The notes beneath the pieces are model-generated. The model saw only the letters and a list, made by a program, of their open reading frames with translations, searched no databases and was not told the DNA's origin. A program made the translations under genes and the position numbers. A stretch of 33,709 nt of DNA from DHVE2 group archaeon (lineage in GTDB: Archaea > Thermoplasmatota > Thermoplasmata > Thermoplasmatales > Aciduliprofundaceae), in contig WAKX01000017.1 in NCBI GenBank assembly GCA_015523125.1, forward strand, positions 1-33,709, written 5' to 3'. Positions 23,454 to 25,133 of the stretch are shown here, one piece after another. Position 1 is the first letter of the stretch. The number at the start of each line of letters is the position of its first letter.

Positions 23454-24227
23454 TTAGAACCTGACTTTGTCCACAATTTTTTCTTCCATTTCTCCCAAAA
23501 CTTCCGCTTCTACTTCTATCATATCCTTTAGCCCGGACATCTCGATTTTGTTCTTCAGCAACTCGTCCACCTGAAATATCCCAGCGGAGTTCTTCATTTC
23601 TATTTTTATCTTCAATGGCGTGTCCGTTCCCTCCATCACGCTAACCCTTTTGATTGCAAGAGCGGACACGGAGTGAATATTTACCTTTCCTGCTTCGAAG
23701 GGTATCCGAGCGCGGCCCTCCTCCATGTCCAGCGCGTCCGCAATCTTCGCAACACCTGCCTCTACGGTTAATGGCATAATGGGTGCACGATGGGAGAATA
23801 TCGCGTGGAGAATCTCCGCCTTCATAATTGCGCAGTGCTCATCATCGTATATGCCTTGGAGAATGCGGTCTATTATGGGAATTGCCAAAGGTATGCTGTT
23901 GTTCTCGTGCTCCACACGATGAATCGCATGCCCGATATCATGAAGTGCAGCAGCCATAACCACAACGATTTCCGCATCCTCTTTGGTCATCCCATAATTT
24001 TTCACTATACTCGGAGTAACCCCCTTAGAAACTAAAATGCGGAGCATCTTGAGAGCAAGATTTGCCACAATTTTAACGTGCACGGGGCCGTGGTCGTTGT
24101 ACCCCAAGCGGTCTATAGCAATTATATTGGACGCTTTCCAAAGAGTTTGTAGTTCCACATCTTCGTTTATCCGCTTCACCACTTCCCTTAACTTATCGTT
24201 GTTTTCAACCGGTACCGAGAATTCCAT
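23454..24227 (-). CDS. HD-domain phosphohydrolase
   Basis: The protein has 257 residues. The HD metal site is seen as His50 (DHGPVHV), His96-Asp97 (ALHDIGH), His100 and later Asp164 or Asp167 (KIADALDMEEGR). His residues in the insert (HENN, HCAIMKAEILHAIFSH) may complete a two-metal centre. HD enzymes hydrolyse phosphate esters of nucleotides or related compounds; the substrate is unknown. A C-terminal domain of about 70 residues (VSALAIKRVSVMEG onward) has no call. The ATG is about 27 nt after TATA TTTAATACT. Its 3' end lies 3 nt from the FKBP stop. Its promoter shares an AT-rich region with the C/D box sRNA. Confidence 0.85.
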   Translation of the reverse strand: MEFSVPVENNDKLREVVKRINEDVELQTLWKASNIIAIDRLGYNDHGPVHVKIVANLALKMLRILVSKGVTPSIVKNYGMTKEDAEIVVVMAAALHDIGHAIHRVEHENNSIPLAIPIIDRILQGIYDDEHCAIMKAEILHAIFSHRAPIMPLTVEAGVAKIADALDMEEGRARIPFEAGKVNIHSVSALAIKRVSVMEGTDTPLKIKIEMKNSAGIFQVDELLKNKIEMSGLKDMIEVEAEVLGEMEEKIVDKVRF

Positions 24228-24248: not shown

Positions 24249-24257
24249 ATTAAATAT
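24249..24257 (+). promoter_or_regulatory. TATA element of the sRNA-gfcR transcript
   Basis: ATTAAATAT lies about 29 nt upstream of 24278, so transcription would begin at about the C box of the sRNA. On the other strand the same AT-rich stretch serves the HD gene. Confidence 0.5.
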
Positions 24258-24273
24258 TTTCAAATGATGTATG

Positions 24274-24326
24274 GTTGTGATGAAACAAGGGCGCTGATAG
24301 ATGATGAGCCCTATGAGTGCTGAGGT
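24274..24326 (+). ncRNA. C/D box guide sRNA in the leader of gfcR
   Basis: All four boxes fit the archaeal consensus in order and spacing: C box GTGATGA (24277-24283), 10-nt guide AACAAGGGCG, D' box CTGA (24294-24297), 3-nt spacer, C' box ATGATGA (24301-24307), 12-nt guide GCCCTATGAGTG, D box CTGA (24320-24323). Such RNAs direct fibrillarin (with L7Ae and Nop5) to 2'-O-methylate rRNA or tRNA at the base paired five nucleotides upstream of D or D'. Predicted targets contain CGCCCTTGTT and CACTCATAGGGC; I could not identify them. The RNA ends only a few bases before the Shine-Dalgarno sequence and ATG of gfcR. The guides share complementary AGGGC/GCCCT cores. Confidence 0.75.
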
Positions 24327-24332
24327 GATGTT

Positions 24333-24920
24333 ATGAAGAGCGTGAAAGAACTGGCAAGCAGAGCGCTTGAACTGAGAAAGAGGGGGCTTGACACAAAGGA
24401 AATCGCAACGGAGTTGCATCTATCGACAAACACGGTGGAATGGCTCCTGACGAAAGGGTACGAGGAAGAGGAGGCACCGAAGGATGTTAAGATAGGATGG
24501 AGAAGCATAGGCATATATCCCTATCGAATATCTAAGATAGCGGAAGTGATGAGCGACATAATTTTAGAAGAGATGGACAAGCGCGATTTCGTTATAGATT
24601 CAGTCGTAGGCATTTTGATAAACGGTATTCCTTACGCAACGTTCATCGCTGAAGAGTTAGGCGTGGAGATGATAGTGTATCGTCCGCATCCGCAGAGAGA
24701 AGAGGGCGCGTTTTCCAGCAATTACGCGCATATCGAGGGAAAGAAAGTTGTCATAGTGGACGATGTCCTCAGTACCGGAGAAACAATTAAAAAAGCCATC
24801 GAAGACATAAAAAATGCCGGTGGCGAGCCAAAGCTAGTGGTGGTTATGGTTAACAAGACCCCGCGGGACGAAGTCAATGGTGTGCCACTAAGGGCCCTCA
24901 TCAGAGCGCTTCCCCTTTGA
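24333..24920 (+). CDS. gfcR: GfcR-like regulator: HTH plus orotate phosphoribosyltransferase-like domain
   Basis: The protein has 195 residues. An N-terminal helix-turn-helix (about 1-45: VKELASRALELRKRGLDTKEIATELHLSTNTVEWLL) is fused to a type I phosphoribosyltransferase fold with the PRPP-binding loop VVIVDDVLSTGET at 139-151. This is the build of archaeal PyrE-like proteins, of which Haloferax GfcR activates sugar-catabolic genes; PRPP or a phosphosugar is a likely ligand. The Shine-Dalgarno sequence GAGGTGAT lies close before the ATG and partly borders the D box of the sRNA. Its last 33 nt overlap the convergent small membrane-protein gene. Local target genes are not obvious. Confidence 0.85.
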   Translation: MKSVKELASRALELRKRGLDTKEIATELHLSTNTVEWLLTKGYEEEEAPKDVKIGWRSIGIYPYRISKIAEVMSDIILEEMDKRDFVIDSVVGILINGIPYATFIAEELGVEMIVYRPHPQREEGAFSSNYAHIEGKKVVIVDDVLSTGETIKKAIEDIKNAGGEPKLVVVMVNKTPRDEVNGVPLRALIRALPL

Positions 24921-25133
24921 ACCTTTTTTTGCGTTCCATATTTCCTCGTAGAATTTTTTATCCTCCTCGCTGAGATCTTTTTTCTCTTCTCTGGGTTCTT
25001 TTTCCATCTCCATGTATTTTCTCATTATGCTGTTCTTCTTTGGATTTAAAATTCTCTGGAGAATCCATGCAAGAAACACCAACCCAACCACAACTACGAT
25101 TATTCGGCAAACCTCGTAGGCGAAATCGTTCAT
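24888..25133 (-). CDS. Small single-pass membrane protein, co-transcribed with aMBF1
   Basis: The protein has 81 residues. One transmembrane helix (about residues 9-28, CRIIVVVVGLVFLAWILQ) is followed by a charged cytoplasmic tail rich in Lys and Glu (MEKEPREEKKDLSEEDKKFYEEIW). Its ATG overlaps the aMBF1 stop in an ATGA, a sign of translational coupling. The 3' end runs 33 nt into gfcR on the other strand. I recognise no family. Coupling to a transcription coactivator gene is notable, but the function is unknown. Confidence 0.75.
   Translation of the reverse strand: MNDFAYEVCRIIVVVVGLVFLAWILQRILNPKKNSIMRKYMEMEKEPREEKKDLSEEDKKFYEEIWNAKKGSKGKRSDEGP

Follow-up and report, generated by a model that had tools for sequence, protein, structure and literature searches.

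The 5′ leader of a gfcR-like gene in the window, meaning the whole stretch of 33,709 nt that was analyzed, contains a series of boxes typical of archaeal C/D box guide RNAs. This raises the question whether the element is a genuine guide RNA, which nucleotide it would modify, and whether its position directly upstream of a protein-coding gene has consequences for that gene.

The element shows the order RTGATGA/CTGA/RTGATGA/CTGA, guides of about 10–12 nt and a short D′-C′ spacer, as known for archaeal box C/D guide RNAs. Reading of the sequence agreed with the first-pass annotation in the exact consensus boxes, the 10- and 12-nt guides, the spacer of 3 nt and the distance between the D box, which ends at 24323, and the ATG at 24333, 9 nt further on (Table 1). 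The extent of 24274–24332 given there does contain the element, but the RNA proper covers 24277–24323, and positions 24274–24276 and 24324–24332 are flanks. The full C-D′-C′-D motif occurs once in the window and in none of 300 dinucleotide shuffles (both strands). No Rfam family reached its gathering threshold at 24277–24323. RNAfold predictions of the leader were set aside, as k-turns are beyond its model. A short ORF starting from an ATG within the D guide was dropped, since its frame varies across relatives.

Table 1. Features of the gfcR leader region in the window and of the related guide RNA in the pre-tRNA-Trp intron
Feature	Position	Strand	Basis or remark
HD-domain gene, divergent neighbour	23454..24227	-	PF01966
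TATA-like element ATTAAATAT	24249..24257	+	starts 28 nt before the C box; putative promoter of the sRNA, predicted to serve gfcR too
C/D box guide RNA, C box to D box	24277..24323	+	exact boxes; shuffles; conserved leaders
C box GTGATGA	24277..24283	+	sequence read
D′ guide AACAAGGGCG, 10 nt	24284..24293	+	orphan in the window's genus; relatives have AAGAGGGTCAG, matching 23S helix 69 (C1920)
D′ box CTGA	24294..24297	+	sequence read
D′-C′ spacer TAG, 3 nt	24298–24300		sequence read
C′ box ATGATGA	24301..24307	+	sequence read
D guide GCCCTATGAGTG, 12 nt	24308..24319	+	complement of elongator pre-tRNA-Met around C34
D box CTGA	24320..24323	+	sequence read
Shine-Dalgarno sequence GAGGTGAT	24322..24329	+	first two bases common with the D box; (GA)GGTGAT
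gfcR-like gene, HTH + phosphoribosyltransferase, PRK02277 subfamily	24333..24920	+	NF002620 219.5 bits (cut-off 115); Pribosyltran 53 bits
C/D guide in pre-tRNA-Trp intron, D′ guide GAGGGTCAG	L220/L229 (G000:C32:37906-38042); also L230–L233, L245		

For the analysis of conservation, relatives were selected by homology of the gfcR protein alone and their leaders were read afterwards, which avoids the bias of a pattern scan towards the exact guide. In families f1 (12 genomes, including the window's own) and f3 (2 genomes), every genome whose leader could be read, 14 in total, contains the guide RNA directly before the gfcR-like gene. The D guide CCCTATGAGTG is invariant in these 14 leaders, with 100% identity over the last 11 nt of the guide. 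Pairwise identity amounts to about 95–100% in the boxes, compared to 31% in the 12 nt upstream and 44% in the linker. TGATGA-type words can double as Shine-Dalgarno or start codon material, which might speak for a leader that only resembles C/D boxes by chance. The shuffles argue against this, and the conservation in leaders picked by gfcR homology alone is the strongest proof; it already refutes such a resemblance, whose probability is negligible. By its sequence, the element at 24277–24323 is a genuine, conserved C/D box guide RNA. In the gfcR leaders of the relatives G015, G016, G017, G019, and G020, the guide RNA is absent.

The target of the D guide was searched in the 37 tRNA genes of the organism including their introns (3,071 nt). 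The best match is the elongator pre-tRNA-Met L043 (G000:C26:11267-11374), where GACTCATAGGG forms 10 contiguous Watson-Crick base pairs from position 2 on. C34 lies opposite the fifth nucleotide from the D box, which is the position expected for the methylated base. The pairing spans the 5′ splice site and comprises ACTCATA of the exon and GGG of the intron, which begins after A37. The runner-up among the tRNA matches has 9 bp including three G-U pairs at a non-anticodon site, and the two other CAU tRNAs, namely the initiator and L040, which contains an intron and is probably a tRNA-Ile, follow with 7 bp, one of them G-U. In an initial set of rRNA sequences that did not comprise the full 23S and 16S, no match was listed for the D guide. 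The D guide thus almost certainly directs, as judged from this pairing, the 2′-O-methylation of the wobble base C34 in elongator tRNA-Met.

Among the pre-tRNA-Met sequences read from 17 relatives, 16 contain the unchanged target ACTCATAGGG. The exception is G020 of family f6, whose Met intron begins with AGTG. When 21 genomes were searched with a relaxed pattern for a compensating guide of this family, five scattered matches were obtained, none of which has a C′ box nearby; covariation of guide and target was thus not seen, with one Met intron read for family f6.

Guides for Cm34 of elongator tRNA-Met which use intron sequence without being intronic themselves have been described as 18 archaeal candidates, including Haloferax (PMC2584109), and sR-tMet is the Cm34 guide of elongator tRNA-Met in Haloferax (PMC4033218). 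Like sR49 of Pyrococcus and sR-tMet of Haloferax volcanii, the RNA described here targets C34 in an intron-containing precursor, pairs in part with the intron and is not encoded within the tRNA itself (PMC2584109; PMC4033218). It also seems to share their discrimination, as the elongator CAU tRNA (10 bp) is a better match than the initiator and Ile CAU tRNAs (7 bp with G-U) and the intronic GGG is paired. In contrast to sR49 and sR-tMet, in two lineages it forms part of the 5′ leader of a protein-coding gene, and the D′ guide of relatives additionally fits helix 69 (H69) of 23S rRNA. The likeness to the Haloferax and Pyrococcus guides is one of target and design, and a common target could itself impose an identical guide.

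The target also bears on the idea that the element is a pure cis-acting leader structure, i.e., a k-turn riboregulator from which no free guide RNA is released. The fixed leader position in families f1 and f3 would fit this idea, but a structure alone would not keep the letters of a guide, and here the invariant D guide matches pre-tRNA-Met. Furthermore, the identical guide is present at about 90 further loci away from gfcR, which makes a purely cis-acting element very improbable.

The D′ guide behaves differently in different genomes. That of the window, AACAAGGGCG, gave runs of 7–8 bp inside the rRNA genes of relatives and 7 bp with G-U in the organism's own tRNAs, which is background level; in the window's genus it has no target comparable to that of the D guide in the rRNA of relatives and the own tRNAs. 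The search for complements suggested in the first-pass annotation was therefore successful for the D guide and not for the D′ guide. Likewise, the proposed link to rRNA modification is not supported in the form given: the D′ guide of close relatives fits 23S rRNA, but here the confident target is C34 of pre-tRNA-Met, and the D′ guide has no convincing match in the rRNA and tRNA compared.

In relatives, the D′ guide AAGAGGGTCAG forms 10 bp with ATGACCCTCTT in H69 (only 7 bp in G014), and GGGTCA is contained in the D′ guide of 49 out of 113 loci with this guide RNA. By sequence reading, the cytidine predicted to be methylated corresponds to C1920 of E. coli, the site of 2′-O-methylation by TlyA in bacteria, located at the inter-subunit bridge B2a (PMC5778110). 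The 23S gene of the window's own genome ends at a contig edge before H69, which was read in relatives instead. In the window's genus and in G010 the D′ guide is changed and no longer matches H69, while H69 itself is unchanged in G002, G004, and G007 of this genus. A guide fitting H69, GAGGGTCAG, was found in the pre-tRNA-Trp intron of G000, G001 (two copies), G004, G006, and G007. The RNA in this intron (Cm34/Um39) is the other wobble-C34 guide of these genomes; compared to the leader RNA it is intronic, has a D guide directed to tRNA-Trp and carries the H69 D′ guide in the window's genus. The reverse is seen in G009, G011, and G012, where the leader RNA has the H69 guide and the Trp intron one of GCGGGTC type. 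G014 and G018 combine the H69 guide in the leader RNA with a GTGGGTC-type guide in the Trp intron, and G008 contains the H69 guide in both RNAs. The simplest reading of these sequences is that the H69 guide was handed between two wobble-C34 guide RNAs via a redundant intermediate, a comparison that covers few genera, with Trp introns not found for G002, G003, G005, and G010. Guide modules which move between sRNAs have been described for rRNA guides (PMC4644070).

The promoter region indicates how the guide RNA and the gfcR-like gene are transcribed. In all 23 sRNA-gfcR leaders a TATA-like element starts 28–32 nt before the C box. With archaeal promoter spacing, a TATA element at such a distance would place the transcription start at the C box or slightly upstream of it. 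The 9–18 nt between the D box and the ATG in the 23 leaders leave no space for a second promoter. Given this single conserved TATA-like element, whose spacing to the C box hardly varies, and the lack of room for another promoter, the guide RNA and the gfcR-like gene are likely to be located on one transcript, as had been suggested before. A possible operator is a short motif resembling TTTTCAnnnGAT, which most leaders of family f1 share between the TATA-like element and the C box (24258–24268 in the window).

The downstream gene belongs to the PRK02277 subfamily, and to this extent its earlier designation as a GfcR-type regulator holds. The haloarchaeal GfcR model NF045507, however, gave 133.5 bits against a cut-off of 300, and the gene can be called a metabolic regulator by analogy. 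Its Shine-Dalgarno sequence GAGGTGAT is the complement of GGATCACCTCC, the 3′ end of 16S rRNA in relatives. A minus-strand ORF of 81 amino acids (24888–25133) without a Pfam or NCBIfam match overlaps the 3′ end of the gene, and elsewhere in the window an archaeal SRP RNA is located at 2383–2695 (194.6 bits).

An exact pattern scan of public genome contigs identified the D guide together with the boxes at 113 loci, which by record title belong mostly to Thermoplasmatota or unplaced euryarchaeal MAGs; four are titled as other groups (L095, L132, L176, and L191). The guide RNA is located 9–18 nt upstream of a gfcR start at 23 of them. This number was initially 24, until L170 was excluded, where the sRNA is at least 1.5 kb away on the other strand. 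In G019 (L213/L170, G019:C36), about 1.9 kb separate gfcR from the guide RNA, which is encoded on the opposite strand. The MAG A_EUR_01 (L107, L121) contains two gfcR genes with one leader guide RNA each, representing either paralogues or a mixed bin. A G-C-rich terminal stem (at least two G-C pairs) is present in 6 of 23 leader forms compared to 64 of 78 other forms, and this scarcity in the leader forms might mean a weaker terminal k-turn. In the gfcR tree, in which several forks are weakly supported, family f3 stands apart from f1, and G019 and G016, which lack the leader RNA, branch beside f1. The sRNA-gfcR arrangement therefore seems to have either arisen twice or been lost.

The same guide RNA also precedes other genes. 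In five Thermoplasmatota loci it lies directly before Sir2-family genes, with a gap of 18 nt in L101 and L128 and with an ATG overlapping the D box in L118, L175, and L197. In G013 (L215) it is followed by a gene for a protein with an OB-fold domain. At L186 (702-1574)/L216, the D guide CCCTATGAGTG contains an ATG from which an ORF of 291 amino acids without a Pfam match could begin. These other contexts weaken the case for a role specific to gfcR and favour a passenger gene or a shared promoter over a dedicated circuit.

Taken together, we are rather confident that the element is a Cm34 guide of elongator tRNA-Met which is co-transcribed with the gfcR-like gene, the transcript probably having two fates. 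A single promoter would serve both, and the 5′ end of the RNA would coincide with the C box or lie slightly upstream of it. The D guide would bring a fibrillarin RNP to C34 for 2′-O-methylation while the tRNA-Met precursor retains its intron, and the pairing with both the exon ACTCATA and the intron GGG would disfavour the initiator Met and Ile CAU tRNAs. The RNP would assemble on the first approximately 47 nt of the transcript, with the ribosome site of gfcR at its 3′ edge, so that each transcript would probably either be assembled into an RNP and trimmed to yield the mature sRNA or serve as the gfcR mRNA in translation. Target and co-transcription are strongly inferred from the sequence. A competition between RNP assembly and gfcR translation is plausible by analogy, because in Sulfolobus translation is repressed when L7Ae binds a k-turn in the leader (PMC5539422) and C/D genes overlapping the 5′ ends of genes reduced the expression of a reporter (Tripp 2017, cited in PMC7994747); gfcR may also be a tolerant passenger.

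What the arrangement means for gfcR can be read in two ways. It is somewhat probable that the guide RNA provides the promoter and gfcR is carried along, the sRNA being trimmed from some transcripts and the remaining ones being translated, with no sensing of C/D protein levels. In most Thermoplasmatota the sRNA is found apart from gfcR, and the genes that it precedes differ between lineages, the distance between Shine-Dalgarno sequence and D box varies, and the boxes rather than the flanks are required for sRNA maturation (PMC7994747). This is countered by the presence of the gfcR arrangement in 12 of 12 readable f1 leaders and both f3 genomes despite upstream turnover, a longer persistence than a neutral neighbour might show, though the sRNA promoter itself would be under selection. 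The first-pass annotation had instead proposed that C/D proteins could remove or mask the ribosome site. Spare L7Ae, Nop5, and fibrillarin would then lower GfcR, and the regulator would be tied to the state of the RNA-modification machinery. In all leaders the distance of the Shine-Dalgarno sequence from the D box is indeed no more than about 10 nt, with an overlap of the two in the window, and L7Ae autoregulation via a leader k-turn provides a precedent (PMC5539422). But the overlap is not kept in G008, G009, G012, G014, and G018, and there is no known reason why gfcR would be the regulated target, so this mechanism appears rather unlikely. That the tRNA-Met guide doubles as the 5′ regulatory leader of the regulator, with the level of free C/D proteins setting the GfcR-like output, is judged to be unlikely.

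Comparable cases are known for both aspects. A 5′ overlap was reported for about 7% of the C/D genes in six model archaea (Tripp et al. 2017, reviewed in PMC7994747). As in these cases, the sRNA described here abuts or overlaps the start codon and appears to be part of a longer transcript; in contrast to the cases as presented in the review, one gene keeps the arrangement across many species. The L7Ae system of Sulfolobus likewise has a k-turn beside the Shine-Dalgarno sequence, but it consists of a single k-turn in the l7ae mRNA without a guide, whereas here a complete guide RNA precedes another gene and the likeness is one of geometry alone (PMC5539422).

The analysis assigns a named target, Cm34 of elongator tRNA-Met, to a guide RNA conserved through the Thermoplasmatota. 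The apparent shift of the H69 guide suggests that the RNA carrying a guide can be exchanged without loss of the modification site. A review states, on the basis of Pyrobaculum, that in sRNAs directed to tRNAs one guide lacks a target (PMC7994747); if confirmed, a guide RNA for both tRNA-Met and H69 would be an exception to this statement. Finally, guide RNA and protein gene apparently share one promoter across a long evolutionary span, which offers a natural test case for a competition between translation and RNP assembly on a leader.
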